Shown in pieces: positions 4,644 through 64,000 of a DNA stretch of 64,000 bases; the stretch's first letter is position 1; the number at the start of each line of letters is the position of its first letter. The stretch is taken from NCBI GenBank assembly GCA_003144015.1, contig QFWS01000002.1, forward strand, positions 310,001-374,000, written 5' to 3'. Under the pieces are notes generated by a model. That model worked only from the letters and a program-made list of their open reading frames with translations. It had not been told where the DNA came from and did not search any database. Position numbers and translations under genes: made by a program. The stretch is from Flavobacteriaceae bacterium LYZ1037. GTDB lineage: Bacteria; Bacteroidota; Bacteroidia; Flavobacteriales; Flavobacteriaceae.

Positions 4644-5339
4644 CTATTTGGTTGTTAAGTTTTCTATAAAGGCTTCTGGAGTCAATGCATTATCAACATT
4701 AAAATCGCCAATTTTAGTGCGTCTTAAAACAGATAAATGAGAGCCTGAGTTTAGAGCTTTTCCAAAATCGTTTGCTAAAGAGCGTATGTAAGTGCCTTTA
4801 CTACAAACCACTCTAAAACCCACTTGATTATTTTCAATTCGAGTAATTTCAAATTCTGAAACAGTCACTTTTCTAGATTTTATTTCAACGTCTTCTCCAG
4901 CTCTGGCAAATTCATACAAGCGTTTTCCATCTTTTTTTATAGCTGAAAAAACAGGAGGAAATTGATTAATTTCGCCGATAAATTGCTTGGTGGCTTCGAG
5001 GATTGCTTTTTCTGTAATATGATCTGTTGGAAAAGTCTCGTTGATTTCTGTTTCTAAATCAAATGAGGGTGTCGTGCTTCCTAAAATTAAAGTTCCAGTG
5101 TATTCTTTAATTTGTCCTTGAAATGTGTCTATTTGTTTGGTCATTTTTCCAGTACAAATAACCAATAAACCCGTAGCCAATGGGTCTAATGTTCCAGCAT
5201 GACCAACTTTTATTTTTTTTATATTAAAGGCATGACGAATTTCCCAACGAAGTTTATTAACAGCTTGAAACGATGTCCAATGCAAAGGTTTATCTATTAA
5301 TAAAACCTGTCCGGAAAGATAATCTTCGGCTGTTTTCAT
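4644..5339 (-). CDS. truB: tRNA pseudouridine(55) synthase TruB
   Basis: It makes pseudouridine 55 in the T-loop of tRNAs. The TruB core is clear: LLIDKPLHWTS, KVGHAGTLDPLATG with the nucleophile Asp at residue 52, then PPVFSAIKKDGKRLYEFAR and CSKGTYIRSLANDFG. At 231 residues it lacks a long C-terminal PUA domain, as usual for Bacteroidota. It starts 1 bp after the uppP stop, indicating translational coupling. Confidence 0.96.
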   Translation of the reverse strand: MKTAEDYLSGQVLLIDKPLHWTSFQAVNKLRWEIRHAFNIKKIKVGHAGTLDPLATGLLVICTGKMTKQIDTFQGQIKEYTGTLILGSTTPSFDLETEINETFPTDHITEKAILEATKQFIGEINQFPPVFSAIKKDGKRLYEFARAGEDVEIKSRKVTVSEFEITRIENNQVGFRVVCSKGTYIRSLANDFGKALNSGSHLSVLRRTKIGDFNVDNALTPEAFIENLTTK

Positions 5340-56917: not shown

Positions 56918-57235
56918 ATGGCATTAGAGATAACAGATGCAACGTTTGAAGAAACAGTATTAAAGAGTGACAAGCCAGTTATGGTAGATTTTTGGGCAGC
57001 TTGGTGTGGACCATGTAGAATGGTTGGGCCAATTATTGACGAAATTAGTACAGAATATGATGGTAAAGCTGTTGTAGGAAAAGTAGATGTTGATGCAAAT
57101 CAAGAATTTGCTGCCAAATACGGTGTTCGTAATATTCCAACCGTTTTAGTATTTCAAAATGGAGAAGTAGTAGGAAGGCAAGTAGGTGTAGCACAAAAAA
57201 GTGCCTATACAGATGCTATCGATTCACTTTTATAA
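56918..57235 (+). CDS. trxA: Thioredoxin
   Basis: A classic 105-residue thioredoxin: VDFWAAWCGPCRMVGP with Cys30 and Cys33, GKVDVDANQEFAAKYGVRNIPT with the cis-Pro, and the C-terminal VGVAQKSAYTDAI helix. It supplies dithiol reducing power to ribonucleotide reductase and other proteins in the cytoplasm. It stands alone with its own terminator. Confidence 0.97.
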   Translation: MALEITDATFEETVLKSDKPVMVDFWAAWCGPCRMVGPIIDEISTEYDGKAVVGKVDVDANQEFAAKYGVRNIPTVLVFQNGEVVGRQVGVAQKSAYTDAIDSLL

Positions 57236-57257
57236 GATACTTACTAAAAGAAAAGAT

Positions 57258-57290
57258 AAAAGGTTTGCTTTAACGGCAAACCTTTTTTAG
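57258..57290 (+). terminator. Terminator after trxA
   Basis: AAAGGTTTGC (57259-57268) pairs with GCAAACCTTT (57276-57285), followed by TTT. Confidence 0.88.
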
Positions 57291-57327
57291 TTTAGAAGAT
57301 TGATATGTATTAATAGAAATGTTGAAT

Positions 57328-57359
57328 ACTTCCCAACTTGTGCTGAGCACAGTTGAAGT
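57328..57359. repeat. Dispersed palindromic repeat before the DUF58 gene
   Basis: ACTTCCCAACT and AGTTGAAGT enclose the near-perfect dyad TGTGCTGAGCACA. It shares the TGCTGAG core of the repeat in leuS and stands 29 bp before the DUF58 start codon. Confidence 0.6.
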
Positions 57360-57388
57360 GTGAAAAGTGACTCTTGCGACAAAAACTA

Positions 57389-58315
57389 ATGGATTTACAA
57401 AAAGAACTTAATAAAACAGGAGGGTTTAAAAACCTAGATTTACTAGCCAAACAGGTTGTTGAGGGATTTATTTCTGGGATGCATAAAAGTCCCTTTCATG
57501 GATTTTCTGCAGAATTTGCCGAACATAAAATCTATAATCAAGGAGAGAGTACCAAGCATATAGATTGGAAACTTTTTGCTAAAACAGATAGACTTTATAC
57601 AAAACGTTACGACGAAGAAACCAATTTAAGATGTCATTTAATTATCGACAATAGTAGCTCGATGCATTTTCCTAAAATGAAATCTTTTTCTATAGATAAT
57701 TTAAATAAAATAGCATTTACAGCATTAGCTTCTGCATCTTTAATGCATATATTAAAGAAACAAAGAGATGCAGTAGGATTAAGTGTTTATAGTGATTCGT
57801 ATAGTTTTTATTCACCAGAGAAAGGCAGCGAAAGACATCATCATATGTTATTGCATCAATTAAGCGAGTTAGTTATTTCCAAGCCAGAACAAAAACAGAC
57901 AAAAACCTATACCTATTTGCACCAAATTGCTGAGAAAATAAAAAGACGTTCGTTAGTCTTTTTATTTACTGATATGTTGCAAACAAATGTGGATCAAGAC
58001 AAACTGTTTGATGCTTTAAGGCATTTAAAACATAATAAACATGAAGTGGTTTTATTTCATGTATTTGATAAAGAAAAAGAGCTGTTATTCGATTTTGATA
58101 ACACTCCAAAACGCTATGTTGATGTTGAAACTGGTGAGCATATTAATTTATATGCAGAAAACATAAAAGACTCTTATAAAACAGCAGTTAATGATTATTT
58201 TAATGCAATTAGATTAAAATGTGGTCAATATAAAATAAAGTATGTTGAAGCAGATACTAATAAAAATTTCGATAATATATTGACCACCTACATGATAGAG
58301 CGTCAAAGATTTTAA
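57389..58315 (+). CDS. DUF58 / BatA-partner-like protein with a VWA-type domain
   Basis: A 308-residue protein. ATG 57389 (MDLQKELNKTGGFKNLDLLAKQVVEGF) is preferred to TTG 57374. The DUF58 block GMHKSPFHGFSAEFAEHKIY, then STKHIDWKLFAKTDRLY, is followed by a VWA-like domain with the MIDAS start LIIDNSSSM and LVFLFTDML. DUF58 proteins usually accompany MoxR ATPases and BatA-type proteins; none is in the window. It is located between a palindromic repeat and the tRNA-Asp. Confidence 0.88.
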   Translation: MDLQKELNKTGGFKNLDLLAKQVVEGFISGMHKSPFHGFSAEFAEHKIYNQGESTKHIDWKLFAKTDRLYTKRYDEETNLRCHLIIDNSSSMHFPKMKSFSIDNLNKIAFTALASASLMHILKKQRDAVGLSVYSDSYSFYSPEKGSERHHHMLLHQLSELVISKPEQKQTKTYTYLHQIAEKIKRRSLVFLFTDMLQTNVDQDKLFDALRHLKHNKHEVVLFHVFDKEKELLFDFDNTPKRYVDVETGEHINLYAENIKDSYKTAVNDYFNAIRLKCGQYKIKYVEADTNKNFDNILTTYMIERQRF

Positions 58316-58351
58316 TAAATGTAATTTTTTCAAAAAAAACTAAAAAAACAT

Positions 58352-58381
58352 TTGACATATTAAATAAGCAATGTATATTTG
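58352..58381 (+). promoter_or_regulatory. Bacteroidota promoter for tRNA-Asp
   Basis: TTG (58352-58354) and TATATTTG (58374-58381) are exactly 19 bp apart, an ideal TTG/TAnnTTTG match. The tRNA begins 18 bp later. Confidence 0.85.
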
Positions 58382-58399
58382 CCCTCGCAATAAAGCAAC

Positions 58400-58473
58400 G
58401 GTCTGGTAGTTCAGTTGGTTAGAATGTCGCCCTGTCACGGCGAAGGTCGCGGGTTCGAGTCCCGTCCAGACCG
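58400..58473 (+). tRNA. tRNA-Asp (anticodon GTC)
   Basis: The 74-nt cloverleaf has acceptor arms GGTCTGG and CCAGACC with discriminator G, a D-arm with AGTTCAGTTGGTTAGA, anticodon loop CTGTCAC (GTC), and the T-arm GCGGGTTCGAGTCCCGT. CCA is not encoded. It reads aspartate codons. It is the only tRNA in the window. Confidence 0.98.
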
Positions 58474-58479
58474 CTAAAA

Positions 58480-58517
58480 TTGCTAAAGCTCCGAGAGATT
58501 GGAGCTTTTTTTAGCAA
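58480..58517 (+). terminator. Terminator after tRNA-Asp
   Basis: TTGCTAAAGCTCC and GGAGCTTTTTTTAGCAA form a long stem with a T-run within its 3' arm. Confidence 0.85.
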
Positions 58518-58536
58518 TAAAATTTAGTTGTGTTGT

Positions 58537-58605
58537 TTTGATAGATGTAGTAGTCTATCAAAGGTTTAAGTAGTTAAACCAATGGAAAGCTTTCCTTTTT
58601 TCTTT
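58537..58605 (+). other. Three adjacent stem-loops ending in a T-run
   Basis: TTTGATAGA/TCTATCAAA (58537-58562), GGTTTAA/TTAAACC with a GTAG loop (58563-58580) and the palindrome GGAAAGCTTTCC (58584-58595) abut each other and end in TTTTTTCTTT. This looks like structured RNA or a folded repeat, not coding sequence. Confidence 0.45.
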
Positions 58606-58763
58606 GTTGAAAATTGGGATGCTTTTTTGTTTTAGACTGGTTTTGGTTTCTTTTTGAGTGTTATAAGATTTGTATTAGCATCTTTTTCAGCCAGTAACCA
58701 AGTTGATTTTTTCAAAATTTTATTAATAATGAATAGAAATTCTTAAATGAAAAGCAACATTTG

Positions 58764-58798
58764 TGCATTTTATCGATGTAATTATGCATTTTATCGAT
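58764..58798. repeat. Tandem 14-bp direct repeat, 21-bp period (operator-like)
   Basis: TGCATTTTATCGAT occurs at 58764-58777 and 58785-58798. A period of 21 bp equals two helical turns, so a protein could bind both on the same face of DNA. It lies ~265 bp before the peptide gene. Confidence 0.5.
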
Positions 58799-59060
58799 TA
58801 TTTATTAGTTAAGAGATGAGATTATTCTATATTAGCAATCCTTCTTAAGTCCCTAAATCGATTTATTCAACTTAAAAAGGTTAATTATTCCATTCAAGAC
58901 TAGTTAAGTCTTATTCCCTCATGTTGTTAAAATATGTTAGTAATTAGTTTATGCGCATATTTTAAAAAATTAATTATCCATTAATCCCTCAATTAAGGTT
59001 TTGCAAAATGCAAGGCTTGTTAAACATTAATTTAATTGTATAACTATAAATTGAGAATTT

Positions 59061-59249
59061 ATGAAATCCCTAACTATTACACTATTAGTAGCATTATTTT
59101 GTGTAACCGTATCTGGAGTTAACCTTAAAGATACTGTAGTTACTAACCCAACAAAAAAGCAAACTGTTTCAAGTACAGATAACTTTGAATATAACTTTGA
59201 AGTTAATAGACATGTTAAGAAAGGAAGAGGAGTTCCTTCTCAAGGATAA
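59061..59249 (+). CDS. Small secreted peptide (62 residues)
   Basis: MKSLTITLLVALFCVTVSG is a clear signal peptide with cleavage after residue ~19. The mature ~42 residues are polar and basic (NPTKKQTVSSTDNFEYNF, then a VNRHVKKGRGVPSQG tail) and have no Cys. I do not recognise a family. A strong hairpin terminator follows at once, so it can be made from its own mRNA, and a TPR sensor kinase/NarL regulator pair lies 153 bp downstream. A signal peptide or antimicrobial role is possible but unproven. Confidence 0.6.
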   Translation: MKSLTITLLVALFCVTVSGVNLKDTVVTNPTKKQTVSSTDNFEYNFEVNRHVKKGRGVPSQG

Positions 59250-59266
59250 AAAATATTTTATAATTT

Positions 59267-59325
59267 ATGCATATACACACCTCATAGCAATATAAAGGGT
59301 GTGTATGCATATTTATTATGTTTTT
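59267..59325 (+). terminator. Terminator between the peptide and kinase genes
   Basis: ATGCATATACACACC (59267-59281) pairs with GGTGTGTATGCAT (59298-59310) with a 2-nt bulge, followed by ATTTATTATGTTTTTTTT. It separates the peptide transcript from the kinase. Confidence 0.75.
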
Positions 59326-59402
59326 TTTATTCATTATATTCAATACATTACTCTCATGTCATAAAAAATTATAAATTTGAATGACTTTGAAATAAAATTG
59401 TA

Positions 59403-61421
59403 TTGTATAAAAAAATAATCTTCATATTCATATTATTTTTTTTCCTACCATTAAATGCGCAAAACACGTCTTTTAATAGGCAATTAGATAGTATATACTA
59501 TTACAGAGATTTAGCAGAAAAATCTTTAAATACTAAAGATAGAATTCAATATGCCAAATATGCTATTAAACTATCTGAAGCAACCAATCAAGATTCTACT
59601 ATTTTAAAAAGTAAACGTTTACTATCAACACTCTATCTTAGAGAAAGAGATGCTAATTCTTTATATAGCTTGAACCATGAAAATTTAAAACTTGCAAACA
59701 AGTTGCAAGATTCTATTGCTATCGCTAATATAACCAATGTTTTAGGCTGGTATCATGGACAAAAAGCCCAAATAGATAGCTCTTATTATTATTATTATAA
59801 AGCCTCTAAAGCATTTAACAAGATTCATGATGTAGAAAATGAGGCTTTTACGTTGTTTGAAATGTCAGATATTCAATTTAATCAACGCGATTATATTGGT
59901 TGTGAACAAAATGCCGTAGCTTCTATTAGATTATTTCAAAGCCTTCCTGAAACTGAAGGAACTTTAGATTACTTATGGTCATTACACAATTTAATTGCCA
60001 TTGCTTCAGATGAATTGGAATTATATGATAAAGCTATTGAATACCACCATAAAGCACTTACTTATAGCGACAAGATTGAAGATAATTTCATTTACACATT
60101 ATATTCTAATAGCAACATTGCTTTAATTTATAAAGAATTAAAACAGTATGATAAAGCTTTAAAAATATACGAAGATCTATTTCAAAACAAAGAAATTCTC
60201 CTTTTTGAACCTAAAAATTATGCCCTTATTTTAGCCGATTATGCTTTTGTTAAACATTTATCCAATAAATATAAATCAAATGAAATAGCCAGTATGTTTG
60301 ATGAAGCATATAAAATGAGCGACAGTCTACAAGATCCATATAGTATTATGTCTGTTAGTTTAAATGCATCAGAGTTTTATAACGATTTAAACAATAAAGA
60401 TTCTGCGCTTTTTTTTGCAAATAGAGCTTACAATCTTAGCAAAGAAAACAAAACAAACGATGTGATTTTACGATCTCTCATGCTAAAATCTAAAATTGAA
60501 GACGATGTTAAGGCAAAAACGTATTTAACAGAGTATGTGAATTTAAGCGATAGCTTACTAAATAATGAACGTGCTATTAGAAATAAATTTGCAAGAATAG
60601 AATTTGAAACAGATCAAATTGTAGAACGAAGCAAACAAATTGCAAAAGAAAGGCTTTGGTTGTTAATTTTATCTATTGGTTTAATACTAACCTTGTTATT
60701 ATTATATATTATAGTTAGTCAAAGAACTAAAAACAAGGAATTAAAATTTAACCAGCAACAACAAGAAACAAACGAAGAGATTTATAACTTAATGTTATCT
60801 CAGCAAGATAAAATAGATGAAGCAAGAGTTGCTGAAAAAAAGCGAATATCAGAAGAAATACACGATGGCATTTTAGGTCGTTTGTTTGGAATAAGATTGA
60901 GTTTAGATAGCTTGAATATGAGTACAAAACCAGAGGCTATTGAAACTAGAGAAAAATATTTAGAAGATTTAAAAGAGATAGAGCAAGACATTCGAAAAGT
61001 ATCTCATGAACTGAACACCGATTTTGTGTCTGGAACCAACTACATTAGTATTATAAAATCTCTTTTAGAGACACAAACTAAAGCCTATAAGTTAAAATAT
61101 GTTTTAAGAAACGATGATAAAATTGATTGGGATAGTATATCTAATAAAACAAAAATTCATTATTACCGAATTATCCAAGAATCACTTCAAAATATATATA
61201 AGCATGCTAATGCAGAAGAAATACATATTAGCTTTAACCAAAAAAATAATGTAATTTGCTTATCTATTTCAGACAATGGTACTGGTTTCGATGTCAATAA
61301 AGCTAGAAAAGGAATTGGATTAAAAAATATAAATTCTAGAGTAAAAGAAATTCATGGAGAACTAGACATCAAATCAACTATTAATACTGGAACAGAAATA
61401 ATAATTAAAGCCCCTATCTAA
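59403..61421 (+). CDS. TPR-containing sensor histidine kinase (HisKA_3 type)
   Basis: A 672-residue membrane kinase starting at TTG 59403. Signal peptide 1-19, a periplasmic helical region with TPR-like units (~40-380; ELYDKAIEYHHKALTYSDK and KQYDKALKIYEDLF are clear), one membrane helix at 418-438, a coiled coil, the HisKA_3 box ISEEIHDGILGRLFGIRLS (His487), and HATPase motifs QESLQNIYKHAN and DNGTGF. It autophosphorylates and passes phosphate to the NarL-type regulator encoded 15 bp downstream. Outer TPRs suggest a peptide or protein signal. Confidence 0.92.
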   Translation: MYKKIIFIFILFFFLPLNAQNTSFNRQLDSIYYYRDLAEKSLNTKDRIQYAKYAIKLSEATNQDSTILKSKRLLSTLYLRERDANSLYSLNHENLKLANKLQDSIAIANITNVLGWYHGQKAQIDSSYYYYYKASKAFNKIHDVENEAFTLFEMSDIQFNQRDYIGCEQNAVASIRLFQSLPETEGTLDYLWSLHNLIAIASDELELYDKAIEYHHKALTYSDKIEDNFIYTLYSNSNIALIYKELKQYDKALKIYEDLFQNKEILLFEPKNYALILADYAFVKHLSNKYKSNEIASMFDEAYKMSDSLQDPYSIMSVSLNASEFYNDLNNKDSALFFANRAYNLSKENKTNDVILRSLMLKSKIEDDVKAKTYLTEYVNLSDSLLNNERAIRNKFARIEFETDQIVERSKQIAKERLWLLILSIGLILTLLLLYIIVSQRTKNKELKFNQQQQETNEEIYNLMLSQQDKIDEARVAEKKRISEEIHDGILGRLFGIRLSLDSLNMSTKPEAIETREKYLEDLKEIEQDIRKVSHELNTDFVSGTNYISIIKSLLETQTKAYKLKYVLRNDDKIDWDSISNKTKIHYYRIIQESLQNIYKHANAEEIHISFNQKNNVICLSISDNGTGFDVNKARKGIGLKNINSRVKEIHGELDIKSTINTGTEIIIKAPI

Positions 61422-61436
61422 AACCTAAAAAACCTC

Positions 61437-62111
61437 ATGCAAGAAACCATACGCATATTAATGACAGACGATCATCCTATGATTATTGAAGGGTATCAAA
61501 ATACATTAATTGCTACAAAAAAAGAATCTCAAAACTTATTAATTAGTATAGCTAATAGTTGCGATGAATCTATAAGGTTTATGGATCAAGCAGTCGCTCA
61601 AGAAAATCCTTATGATATCCTATTTATGGATATTAGTTTACCTCCTTCAAGCGATGGAAAATATACTTCTGGTGAAGACCTAGCTATGTATGCTAGAAGC
61701 ATTATGCCAAAAGCAAAAATTGTAATTCTAACAATGTTTAATGAAACGTATCGTGTCCATAACATTGTAAAAACTATTAATCCAGAAGGCTTTTTAATTA
61801 AAAGCGATTTAACTTCTAAAGAATTAGCAAGTGCCTTTCAGGCGGTTATTAATAATCCACCATTCTATAGTGGAACTGTAAATAGTATTATTAGAAAAAC
61901 CATTTCTAATGATATTATAGTAGATGAGGTAAATAGAAAAATTCTTCATTTATTATCTCAAGGAGTTAAAACAAAAAGCTTAACAGATCATATCGATTTA
62001 TCTATGAGTGCTATAGAAAAAAGAAAAAAGCACCTAAAAGAAATATTTATGATTGAAGATGGAAGTGACGAAACTTTGCTTGAAAAAGCTAGAAAAAAAG
62101 GCTTTGTATAA
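61437..62111 (+). CDS. NarL/LuxR-type response regulator
   Basis: A 224-residue regulator. The receiver has MTDDHPMIIEGY, phospho-acceptor Asp65 (ILFMDISLPP), VILTMFNET and the conserved Lys in GFLIKSDLTSKE. The C-terminal ~55 residues hold a LuxR-type helix-turn-helix, somewhat divergent (LSQGVKTKSLTDHIDLSMSA, then IEKRKKHLKEIF). Cognate of the TPR kinase by position. Candidate operators TTACGG-N5-CCGTAA lie 81 bp after its stop codon. Confidence 0.93.
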   Translation: MQETIRILMTDDHPMIIEGYQNTLIATKKESQNLLISIANSCDESIRFMDQAVAQENPYDILFMDISLPPSSDGKYTSGEDLAMYARSIMPKAKIVILTMFNETYRVHNIVKTINPEGFLIKSDLTSKELASAFQAVINNPPFYSGTVNSIIRKTISNDIIVDEVNRKILHLLSQGVKTKSLTDHIDLSMSAIEKRKKHLKEIFMIEDGSDETLLEKARKKGFV

Positions 62112-62191
62112 AGCCTATACCAACAAAAAGTGTTAAAATTAAAATTTTATAGCTATCTAAAAACCTTATAAACCTTTGTATTCATTGAGTA

Positions 62192-62230
62192 TTACGGTTT
62201 TTCCGTAATTAATTTGTGGTTTTACCGTAA
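62192..62230. promoter_or_regulatory. Two tandem 17-bp operator-like palindromes
   Basis: TTACGGTTTTTCCGTAA (62192-62208) is a perfect 6-5-6 dyad. TTGTGGTTTTACCGTAA (62214-62230) is a degenerate copy, 22 bp away. Two sites two helical turns apart just upstream of a -7 element indicate an activator or repressor site. Confidence 0.55.
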
Positions 62231-62251
62231 CAAAAGTTTAAAAGTTCCATT

Positions 62252-62259
62252 TATATTTG
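62252..62259 (+). promoter_or_regulatory. Bacteroidota -7 element (TATATTTG) of a candidate ncRNA
   Basis: TATATTTG matches TAnnTTTG, with no TTG at -33. With a start near 62266 the two upstream palindromes are centred near -44 and -66, as for activator-dependent promoters. Confidence 0.5.
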
Positions 62260-62265
62260 AAGTAT

Positions 62266-62371
62266 CAACAGCAATTAATTAATCCCTCAAAAGATATTTC
62301 GTTGATAATAGCATTTACACTAACCTCGTGATTTTTATTTCTTAATAAAAGTCATGAGGTTTCTTCTTTTT
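62266..62371 (+). ncRNA. Candidate ~105-nt regulated non-coding RNA
   Basis: Between the predicted start (~62266) and the terminator (62322-62371) no ORF longer than 9 codons with a usual start exists, yet operators, promoter and terminator are aligned on the plus strand between two convergent genes. The 5' part carries ATTAATCCCTCAA, also found at 58980. The 5' end is predicted, not observed. Confidence 0.4.
62322..62371 (+). terminator. Terminator of the candidate ncRNA
   Basis: AACCTCGTGA (62322-62331) pairs with TCATGAGGTT (62352-62361, one G-U), with a further TTTTTATT/AATAAAA inner stem, then TTCTTCTTTTT. The orientation is plus only. Confidence 0.7.
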
Positions 62372-62879
62372 AGAAAGTGAAGATTTCACTTTTATATTCC
62401 CATACTTTCATAATAAAAAAACCAAAGTATATTATTGCAACTATAAACTTGATAAATGTTCCTGTTAAAAAACCAAGAAACGATCCGAAGGCTGCTTTTA
62501 CTGCTGTTTTAGAGTCGGTTTTATTTAATAATTCTCCAATATAAGCACCTACAAAAGGCCAAACAATAATTCCAAAAACACCTAAAACAGGAAAAAGAAT
62601 AGAAACTAATAACCCAAGTGTTGTACCAATAACACCATATTTACTACCTCCAAACTTTTTAGTCCCTAAAGCAGGAATTAAATAGTCTAACGTAAAAACT
62701 AATAACGCAATGGCTAGTGTAATACCTAGAAACAACCAGTTGTTTGGAATAGCATCAGTTAAATAAAGTAATAACAAGCCAACCCAACTTAAAGGAGGTC
62801 CTGGTAAAACAGGTAAGAAGCTTCCTATTATGCCAACAATCATAAATAGGAAACCCATAAGTGTTAATAAAATATCCAT
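62370..62879 (-). CDS. DUF456 membrane protein
   Basis: A 169-residue hydrophobic protein with four to five membrane helices. The family pattern is visible: GIIGSFLPVLPGPPLSWVGLLLL (in parts), the middle FGGSKYGVIGTTLGLLVS and the late GPFVGAYIGEL-like segment (WPFVGAYIGELL), then AAFGSFLGFLTGTFIK. Function is unknown. It is divergent from the BlaI gene, whose operators lie only 50-110 bp before its start, so both may be regulated together. Confidence 0.88.
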   Translation of the reverse strand: MDILLTLMGFLFMIVGIIGSFLPVLPGPPLSWVGLLLLYLTDAIPNNWLFLGITLAIALLVFTLDYLIPALGTKKFGGSKYGVIGTTLGLLVSILFPVLGVFGIIVWPFVGAYIGELLNKTDSKTAVKAAFGSFLGFLTGTFIKFIVAIIYFGFFIMKVWEYKSEIFTF

Positions 62880-62929
62880 AGATTTTTCTTTATAAGACGA
62901 AGATATGAAATGATTGTTACAAAATTTTA

Positions 62930-62991
62930 AACTAAAAAATTAGTTCAAACTAAATATTTAGTTATATTTGTATTCAACTAAGTGTTTAGTT
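62930..62991. promoter_or_regulatory. Three BlaI-type operator palindromes
   Basis: AACTAA-N4-TTAGTT occurs at 62930-62945, 62948-62963 (a perfect 16-bp palindrome) and 62976-62991. A TATATTTG -7 element (62963-62970) lies between sites 2 and 3, so binding would block RNA polymerase. Confidence 0.7.
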
Positions 62992-63015
62992 TCAGTTTTA
63001 AAAGTTAAAATGTTA

Positions 63016-63038
63016 CTCTGAGTTTGTTGAAGAGTCTC
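63016..63038. repeat. Degenerate copy of the dispersed palindromic repeat
   Basis: ACTCTGAGTTTGTTGAAGAGT resembles the leuS copy (ATGCTGAGCTTGTCGAAGCAT), with paired changes in both arms that keep the stem. It lies in the BlaI leader. Confidence 0.5.
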
Positions 63039-63071
63039 TAAAAAAAAATCAGTGTTTTAAGAAAATATATT

Positions 63072-63431
63072 ATGAAACAACTTACCAAAGCCGAAGAGGA
63101 AATCATGCACGTGTTATGGCAGCTTGAAAAAGCCAATGTCAAACAAATTATAGAGCTTTTACCAACGCCAAAACCAGCTTACAATACCGTTTCAACTATT
63201 GTTCGAATTTTAGAAAGTAAAGGCTTTGTAGATTACGAAAAACAAGGAAAAGGGCATGTTTATTTCCCTTTGGTTAAAAAACAGGATTATAGCAATCAAA
63301 GTTTAAACACTTTGGTGGATAATTACTTTCAAGGATCGTTTAAAAGTATGGTGTCTTTTTTTGTAAAGAAAAACGACATTAGCTTAAACGAGTTGGAATC
63401 AGTTTTAAAAGACATTAATAAAAAGGAGTAA
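63072..63431 (+). CDS. BlaI/MecI/CopY family transcriptional repressor
   Basis: A 119-residue winged-helix repressor: LTKAEEEIMHVLWQLEKANVKQIIELLP (in parts), PAYNTVSTIVRILESKGFVDYEKQGKGHVYFPLV, then a dimerisation helix. The family is released by proteolysis when the membrane partner senses its signal. The partner M56 gene begins 2 bp after the stop. Operators AACTAA-N4-TTAGTT upstream fit autoregulation. Confidence 0.93.
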   Translation: MKQLTKAEEEIMHVLWQLEKANVKQIIELLPTPKPAYNTVSTIVRILESKGFVDYEKQGKGHVYFPLVKKQDYSNQSLNTLVDNYFQGSFKSMVSFFVKKNDISLNELESVLKDINKKE

Positions 63432-63433
63432 TC

Positions 63434-64000
63434 ATGGCACACTATATTATTCAGGCAATTGCATTTCAGCTTTTCTTTTTAATAGTTTACGATGTATTCT
63501 TAAAAAAAGAAACCTTCTTTAATTGGAACAGAGCCTATCTTTTAATAACAGCAATCTTATCATTTGTCTTGCCGTTTATTAAAATTGAAATGTTTAAAAA
63601 TATTGTACCACAACAATTTATTATCACACTGCCAGACGTTATTATTGGGAAACAGAACCCAATTGTTTTAGACGAAGTTTTTATTGAAGGCGTCAACCAG
63701 GCATCTAGTTTTTCATGGTCTTGGATGTACCTGTTTTATCTGGGCTCAGCCATTGCTTTTTCGATTTTTGCGTATAAACTGATTAAAATTATCCAATTAA
63801 TATATGGTAATCCAAAACAACAGGAATCTAATTTGCAAATCGTGAGTTTAAAAAACAGTCGGGATGCTTTTTCATTTTTCAACTACATTTTTATTGGGAA
63901 GCAATTGGCAAACGAAGAACGAGAAACCATTTTAATGCATGAACTGGTTCATGTAAAACAAAAACACAGTTTCGATATGTTATTTTTCGAAATCCTTCGT
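63434..64000 (+). CDS. BlaR1/MecR1-like M56 metallopeptidase (3' end outside window)
   Basis: The visible 189 residues include several N-terminal membrane helices (IAFQLFFLIVYDVFL, LLITAILSFVLPFI, WMYLFYLGSAIAFSIF) and the M56 zinc motif in LMHELVHVKQKHSFD. It should cut or inactivate the BlaI-type repressor after sensing. The start has AAAGGAG 6 bp before ATG 63434, a strong Shine-Dalgarno that is unusual among the genes here. No beta-lactamase is visible; many Bacteroidota copies are TonB-linked and of unknown signal. Confidence 0.88.
   Translation, partial: MAHYIIQAIAFQLFFLIVYDVFLKKETFFNWNRAYLLITAILSFVLPFIKIEMFKNIVPQQFIITLPDVIIGKQNPIVLDEVFIEGVNQASSFSWSWMYLFYLGSAIAFSIFAYKLIKIIQLIYGNPKQQESNLQIVSLKNSRDAFSFFNYIFIGKQLANEERETILMHELVHVKQKHSFDMLFFEILR

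Follow-up and report, generated by a model that had tools for sequence, protein, structure and literature searches.

A candidate peptide-pheromone module with an adjacent small RNA in Flavobacteriaceae

Positions 58,764 to 62,371 of the window (the whole 64,000-nucleotide stretch of contig QFWS01000002.1 of Flavobacteriaceae bacterium LYZ1037 analyzed here) hold a compact set of genes that may form a peptide-signaling module. It consists of a gene for a small exported peptide (P1), a sensor histidine kinase, a response regulator and, beyond the regulator, two tandem palindromic operators followed by a promoter and a region that lacks an open reading frame (ORF) and ends in a terminator. The source is a draft genome of 3.19 Mb whose nearest named relatives found were Xanthomarina and Formosa maritima. 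All of these parts are present where a first-pass annotation had placed them, and all lie inside the window; the module itself extends beyond the window, in the form of candidate unlinked targets. Absent from that annotation were the leader of the P1 mRNA, the tandem boxes in front of it, and an element that it shares with the small RNA. The features are as follows.

58766-58777 and 58787-58798, plus strand: tandem CATTTTATCGAT boxes, 5' of the P1 promoter and recognizable in aligned orthologs
58828-58835, plus strand: TATATTAG, the −7-type box (consensus TAnnTTTG) in the promoter of the peptide gene
58839-59060, plus strand: conserved and structured leader of the P1 mRNA (ortholog alignments; fold z score, −3.0), with an inferred start
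59061-59249, plus strand: P1, a 62-amino-acid exported peptide precursor whose C-terminal part is the proposed ligand
about 59266-59329, plus strand: hairpin and late T-run between the P1 and kinase genes, a partial terminator (folding compared with shuffles)
59403-61421, plus strand: sensor histidine kinase, 672 amino acids from a TTG start that is uncertain (Pfam and structure model)
61437-62111, plus strand: response regulator, a distant relative of NarL/RcsB
62192-62208, plus strand: operator 1, the palindrome TTACGGTTTTTCCGTAA
62214-62230, plus strand: operator 2, the palindrome TTGTGGTTTTACCGTAA, starting 22 base pairs (bp) past the start of operator 1
62252-62259, plus strand: TATATTTG, the −7-type promoter box of the small RNA
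62261-62369, plus strand: conserved small RNA with a closing stem TCAAC/GTTGA, a loop with TTAATTAATCCCTC, then TAATAGCA and a terminator hairpin (E value, 1.4e-13)
62278-62289, plus strand: ATTAATCCCTCA, the element common to the small RNA and the leaders of both peptides (P1 and the unlinked P2)
62322-62361, plus strand: hairpin that terminates the small RNA and in which relatives show compensatory changes

The promoter consensus is that given in the accessible part of PMC9723704. P1 carries an N-terminal export signal recognizable by eye and received no name from NCBIfam and Pfam scans. It is a real gene, since its codons are under constraint (ratios of nonsynonymous to synonymous polymorphism [pN/pS] of 0.19, 0.46, and 0.33 across three segments, from six of the eight genomes of the genus) and the ORF criterion picked out 78 of 78 upstream regions, far above the opposite strand (1 of 78) and shuffled sequences (19 of 1560). 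Conservation was followed in 119 related genomes, the source genome included, of which 29 carry the regulator at 62% identity or more and 90 do not. At all 29 orthologous loci a small exported-peptide ORF of 46 to 79 residues lies on the same strand within about 400 nucleotides (nt) 5' of the kinase frame, and an upstream peptide ORF is likewise present at all 78 judgeable loci of a set of 80 named loci, 11 of which are common to both sets (the contigs of L177 and L185 end inside the kinase). The first-pass annotation had named the absence of the peptide from most genomes that keep the kinase-regulator pair as one observation that would refute it, and at these loci the peptide proved to be universal. 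Among more distant pairs (42 to 57% identity), inspection by eye found a small lipoprotein ORF upstream of 14 of the 18 that could be judged, with three further pairs not judgeable; it found no upstream peptide ORF at the second copies in G067, G026, and G065 or at the copy in G209. The precursors fall into two classes, one secreted, as in the source genome, and one lipoprotein (..SCTKQDLNEDDVL..TGG..). The peptide gene had also been credited with its own terminator, which holds in part: a hairpin and a late T-run are present, and the gap before the kinase gene folds better than mononucleotide shuffles (z, −5.6; from −1.7 to −7.7 in the 15 genomes tested, the source included), but the terminator is a partial one that a simple terminator scan did not list.

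In the kinase, a signal sequence and a single membrane span can be recognized by eye, and Pfam places a tetratricopeptide repeat (TPR) domain (TPR_12), HisKA_3 (28.8 bits; cutoff, 24), and HATPase_c (40.9 bits; cutoff, 26.4) above their cutoffs, as in a two-component kinase of the HisKA_3 type. In an AlphaFold model (mean predicted local distance difference test score of 84, with most of the sensor above 90), a TPR superhelix at about residues 23 to 365 is followed by a long helix running into the membrane span. Judged by eye from the sequence and from the model, the TPR region sits between the N-terminal signal and the single span, with the kinase domain after it, and is predicted to lie outside the cytoplasmic membrane, as the first-pass annotation had it. 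That annotation's comparison with RRNPP receptors does not hold for the kinase because those receptors are cytoplasmic. The best Protein Data Bank (PDB) matches of the sensor are LGN/Pins TPR domains complexed with Inscuteable, NuMA, and Frmpd4, and the catalytic part matches DesK/VraS folds; because identity is about 15%, the sensor match suggests a fold that suits peptide binding and nothing beyond that. The description of the regulator as NarL-type stands with a qualification: it rests on full-length but sub-cutoff matches to NarL/RcsB/MctR models, because the receiver domain (Response_reg, 24.9 bits) falls under its Pfam cutoff of 30.2 and Pfam found no GerE match.

Past the regulator, the tandem palindromes, the TATATTTG box, and a terminator succeed one another with no ORF, and the small-RNA region folds with a z score of −5.47, with 0 of 200 shuffles folding as well. 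An RNA of the form TCAAC...TTAATTAATCCCTC...GTTGA..TAATAGCA, which varies slightly between orthologs and ends in a terminator, is found downstream of the regulator in 28 of 28 orthologs (in G022 a contig end cuts the regulator, so that nothing downstream of it can be read). Most of these 28 have an exact TAnnTTTG box, and some have an altered one. Both palindromes can be made out clearly in the genus; in the lipoprotein clade copy 1 is degenerate, and G021 lacks it. Of the 80 named loci, 76 match the RNA pattern, at 108 to 295 nt from the regulator stop codon, and the remaining four hold a variant recognized by eye. Eight of 15 consensus base pairs have changed on both sides, all in the terminator stem; the closing stem is uninformative for covariation because it hardly varies. 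A covariance model run on 397 genomes of the family detected the RNA in 118, and an ortholog of the regulator, defined by a cutoff of about E 2e-82 placed at a gap after the data had been seen, is present in 116. Both occur in 110 genomes, the RNA alone in 8, and the regulator alone in 6, and the RNA adjoins the regulator in 109 of the 116 ortholog-bearing genomes. Seven of the eight RNA-only matches have E values of 0.002 to 0.009, about what chance would give among 397 genomes. The remaining one (G330; E, 1e-12) comes from a contig of 3 kb that does not include the regulator. Within positions 57000 to 64000 of the window, only a tRNA reached the Rfam gathering score, with no match in the RNA region. 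Rfam includes some of the Bacteroidetes RNA motifs that PMC2864571 lists.

Several further observations concern this RNA. Extra tandem copies occur in G191 (three, at C55:20943-21752, plus a weak match on another contig), in G162 (two, at C13:182871-183541), and in G344 (a second weak copy, at C3:43998-44444), where the regulator gene has internal stops. In the lipoprotein clade (L123 to L193), the terminator loop GGAGGTGAGAGA is nearly invariant on a variable stem and resembles a strong Shine-Dalgarno sequence. Such sequences are hardly used in this family. For the GGAGGTGA loop, an anti-Shine-Dalgarno role was weighed and set aside, since this loop is confined to the sister clade. On the minus strand of the window (62370 to 62879), a convergent gene for a DUF456 membrane protein ends at the small-RNA terminator, and a DUF456-like gene apparently lies downstream in many relatives too, as judged by eye.

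The exact palindrome TTACGG-N5-CCGTAA occurs in 19 of the 29 genomes with the regulator (67 sites) and in 9 of the 90 without it (10 sites), the reversed control pattern giving 10 and 25 sites, respectively; outside the genus, 11 of 21 regulator-bearing genomes hold it, against 9 of 90. Only exact palindromes are used here because mismatched sites do not consistently rise above the reversed control, which with up to two mismatches gave 78 matches to 31 for the palindrome. The eight genomes of the genus hold 43 exact sites, 8 of them at the RNA, 8 at a second peptide gene (P2), and 27 elsewhere. With unscanned neighbors named from their N termini, four of these 27 are flanked by an exported protease-like gene on one side and an oligopeptide-transporter ATPase gene on the other, five have lepA and a receptor-like gene as neighbors, and two precede genes for C10-type proteases. 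Ten palindrome neighbors were scanned with Pfam, which identified a C10 protease with a Spi propeptide, an M4 thermolysin, an M43 protease with a type IX secretion system (T9SS) tail, and one ATPase, and found no match in the other six.

P2 is a second exported peptide, of 46 to 50 residues in the genus, encoded away from the locus. It is present in 28 of the 29 genomes with the regulator and in 1 of the 90 without (E, 3e-6). Weak matches came from G065, a regulator-bearing genome, and from three genomes that lack the regulator (G019, G070, and G115). Of 30 loci, 27 could be parsed (G055, G043, and G065 could not), and with a relaxed operator pattern a palindrome was found 116 to 129 nt 5' of the P2 start codon in 25 of these, in 20 of them as TACGG-N5-CCGTA; the same relaxed pattern found none before P2 in G013 and G057. 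The linkage of the RNA to the regulator and the recurrence of the same operator at the unlinked P2 make it highly probable that the regulator acts at the TTACGG palindromes and that the small RNA is a direct output, as the first-pass annotation had supposed for the RNA. Some P2 tails resemble secreted P1 tails, such as ..LPTGEQ and ..VPSGEQ in G031. A 179-amino-acid membrane protein that Pfam did not recognize begins where the P2 gene ends (L110:2783-3319, minus strand), and a similar ORF of 178 to 188 amino acids follows P2 in all eight genomes of the genus.

The architecture of the precursors points to the C-terminal tail as the part that is read. P1 of G021 contains TGGGVDERD three times and that of L180 contains TGGDIDE twice; G398 has two peptide genes with an identical signal sequence and identical last 17 residues around differing middles, and G348 has two near-copies of the gene. 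Several pheromone copies are also held by some Rap-Phr precursors, according to the accessible part of PMC11343458. The relationship between tail and sensor was assessed in 66 lipoprotein-clade loci out of 103 tabulated rows, because secreted-class tails cannot be aligned with those of the lipoprotein clade; one genome (G035/L121) is counted twice among the 103 and not among the 66. Measured from stop to stop, 44 of these kinase frames are short (609 to 633 residues) and 22 are long (670 to 692), and an acidic tail goes with a short kinase and a basic tail with a long one in 61 of the 66 loci (42 plus 19, with 3 plus 2 exceptions), under a tail-class rule fixed after the data had been seen. 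On a tree of the kinase core and regulator, the sensor class switches 13 times, 7 of them forced by well-supported branches. In partial Mantel tests (66 loci, 2000 permutations), whose permutation corrects for relatedness incompletely, the last 12 residues follow the sensor when the core (the rest of the kinase plus the regulator) is given (r, 0.655; P, 0.0005), the first 30 residues do not (r, 0.04; P, 0.25), and the tail has no positive link to the core once the sensor is given (r, −0.16). Five hand-picked sister pairs have core identities of 0.87 to 0.91, sensor identities of 0.44 to 0.55, and different tails; L135 and L136, for instance, have values of 0.90 and 0.53 and different tails, and L130 and L144, at 0.80 in both core and sensor, have the near-identical tails TLIVGDGTIETR and TLIVGDGTIELR. 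This pattern is what would be left by repeated exchange of receptor-ligand pairs. The co-variation, the tail repeats, and the duplicated genes that keep their tails together make it quite likely that the linked kinase has the P1 tail as its ligand, and they lend support to the annotation's proposal of the mature peptide in that role.

The leader of P1, about 220 nt long and conserved in an alignment of 18 of the 29 sequences, folds better than all but 2 of 200 shuffles and contains two TTAATnATCCATT...CCCTCA copies (58881 to 58921 and 58970 to 58991). The P2 leader ends in TTAATTAATTAAATCCCTTAAATT-ATG, recognizable in 27 of 27 loci (in G020 with AACCCT for ATCCCT). The common pattern, ATTAAn?TCCCTYA, occurs six times in the source genome: in the P1 leader, in the small RNA, in the P2 leader, and three times inside other ORFs. 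All three copies outside genes thus belong to this system, and this is the sole argument for the shared element, the count itself not being enriched, since the reversed control occurs eight times. A pairing of CCCTCAATT with AATTGAG beside the P1 start codon, taken from the fold of the leader, was seen by eye in most of the genus and not in the wider set, and it was not used. The ATTTNATCGA boxes that stand in tandem before P1 (58766 to 58798) also lie about 10 bp from many TTACGG palindromes. A P1-like leader (AATCCATT, a hairpin, and CTTCCCTCA) is present on the minus strand of contig C34 of G000 (5092 to 5129; L102; L111:3-4988), where it precedes a 170-amino-acid exported ORF and a 1481-amino-acid protein with SprB and HYR_4C domains. 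The latter is possibly an adhesin under related control; the leader at this candidate could be chance because the reversed control pattern also had one match.

We propose, with a probability of roughly 0.7, that the locus encodes a peptide-pheromone system that works like agr-RNAIII and is built of unrelated parts. The 62-residue precursor, a lipoprotein in the sister clade, would be exported, and its C-terminal 10 to 17 residues would serve as the signal, sitting in the groove of the TPR superhelix outside the cytoplasmic membrane. The kinase, going by its family, would hand phosphate to the regulator, which would bind TTACGG-N5-CCGTAA palindromes and activate the small RNA, P2, and some secreted proteases. 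In the weakest step, the RNA may act on the peptide genes via the shared element TTAATTAATCCCT; the likeliest way would be to bind the factor that would also read the element in the P1 and P2 leaders. That the RNA is a decoy for a leader-binding factor is a tentative suggestion, and we rate titration of a shared factor about level with, or slightly below, pairing with targets. On balance, the peptide probably signals from cell to cell rather than serving as a cell-bound accessory. A fuller picture, which we regard as doubtful, would be a Bacteroidota pheromone system with switching pherotypes in which an extracytoplasmic TPR kinase reads an exported (lipo)peptide and its regulator drives an RNA that competes with two pheromone-gene leaders for an RNA-binding factor, one circuit coupling cell density, secreted proteases, and its own signal supply.

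A number of results weigh against the pheromone proposal. Lipoprotein precursors are not obviously diffusible. The tail classes were drawn post hoc, the Mantel correction is incomplete, and among independent pairs the tail changed in the same way as the sensor in 5.2 of 7 cases and in the opposite way in 0.0, with a median P of 0.06. Helices A and B of the TPRs are equally variable, so sensor variability does not indicate the groove. To these may be added the sub-cutoff receiver of the regulator and its lack of a GerE match. With up to one mismatch the palindrome does not exceed its reversed control in every genome, the two counts being similar in several, and for 16 of the 27 other sites in the genus no target could be named. 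The covariance model found no RNA for the 16 next regulators (E, 1.5e-81 to 3.5e-69), one of which (G022) is cut by a contig end, and none at six of the 116 orthologs, five of which have a diverged copy by eye and one of which (G348) has none. The shared-element pattern was drawn from the three system copies themselves and is outnumbered by its control, and the RNA itself pairs with the P1 leader no better than shuffled sequences do (mean z, +0.36; 26 genomes).

The tight linkage and the tail-sensor co-variation would also be explained if the peptide were a cell-bound accessory or inhibitor of the kinase, in the manner of CpxP, forming a co-evolving complex that senses envelope state or proteolysis, and the lipoprotein clade would indeed hold the peptide on a membrane. 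However, several features are ones that pheromone systems typically show: repeats within the tail, duplicated genes that keep it, sensor and tail changing together repeatedly between sisters, and a regulon in which secreted proteases are joined by another exported peptide. We consider the accessory explanation unlikely. A very improbable alternative is that the region past the regulator is a mere 3' untranslated region of the operon with its terminator, the palindromes serving another factor or forming RNA hairpins. A simple scan listed no plus-strand terminator between the regulator stop codon and the palindromes and flagged palindrome 1 itself as terminator-like, but the RNA body and promoter box are kept in each of the 28 orthologs, at a variable distance from the stop codon, and the same palindrome precedes the unlinked P2.

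The mode of action of the RNA is more evenly contested. It may pair with target mRNAs (those of proteases, an adhesin, or the peptide leaders), the shared element then being a common 5' stability or translation element, and we give this somewhat less than even odds. Rfp18 of Flavobacterium psychrophilum affects protease mRNAs with predicted pairing, as far as the accessible part of PMC9723704 describes it, and the core TTAATTAA is self-complementary. Against pairing, no signal over shuffles was obtained between the RNA and the P1 leader, the one target compared, and the three nongenic copies of the element all fall within this system.

If the pheromone proposal is correct, a peptide-signal system exists in about 30% of the genomes sampled from the family (118 of 397, by presence of the RNA), and its ligand, receptor, regulator, operator, and RNA output, together with some of its targets, can be named and put to the test. 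It would further provide a natural set of exchanged receptor-ligand pairs and point to a possible new RNA-binding factor. Flavobacteriaceae are major polymer degraders in the sea, and the arrangement looks like an undescribed way for marine flavobacteria to sense one another by peptides. That the annotation knew of no description of the arrangement is in keeping with the literature searched, which covers few subscription papers or bioRxiv preprints and in which we found neither this arrangement nor a gene-encoded peptide signal for Flavobacteriaceae.

Like the RRNPP(A) systems, such as Rap-Phr (PMC11343458, in its accessible part), the proposed system would combine a TPR receptor with short peptides from an exported precursor. 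RRNPP receptors act in the cytoplasm and need peptide import, whereas here the TPR domain is predicted to be extracytoplasmic and is carried on a histidine kinase. ComX-ComP-ComA of Bacillus likewise has a HisKA_3 kinase, a NarL-like regulator, and a polymorphic peptide and sensor; the present sensor differs in being a TPR superhelix, a small RNA is added, and no isoprenyl transferase (ComQ) was found among the seven neighboring proteins scanned. As in GacS/GacA-RsmY/Z, whose regulator is of the NarL/FixJ group, a regulator, here a distant NarL/RcsB relative, would drive a small RNA that may bear a motif of its target leaders, but the motif is UUAAUUAAUCCCUC rather than GGA and the signal would be a gene-encoded peptide. 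Within the Bacteroidota, Rfp18 is a conserved flavobacterial RNA that affects secreted proteases and has a secreted adhesin as one predicted target; it differs in having at least three stem-loops and predicted mRNA pairing, and no linked kinase is mentioned in the accessible text (PMC9723704). The two RNAs, compared by description rather than by sequence, may be related. The RbpB/FopS RNAs of Bacteroides are bound by an RNA-binding protein of a type that could read the element proposed here, but FopS is a multicopy family acting on glycan transporters, with no peptide, kinase, or shared element in the part of PMC11697453 available. The parallel in working proposed above is agr-RNAIII of Staphylococcus. 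The peptide here is linear rather than cyclic, the sensor is of the TPR type, the host is Gram negative, and the RNA is unrelated; among the same seven proteins around the locus there is no match to AgrB, AgrD, or LytTR, which were not sought in the rest of the genome. What the two would have in common is an exported peptide with a cognate polymorphic sensor kinase, a regulator with tandem sites (here the predicted ones at the adjacent RNA), a regulatory RNA next to these genes, control of exoproteases, and a receptor and ligand that change together.

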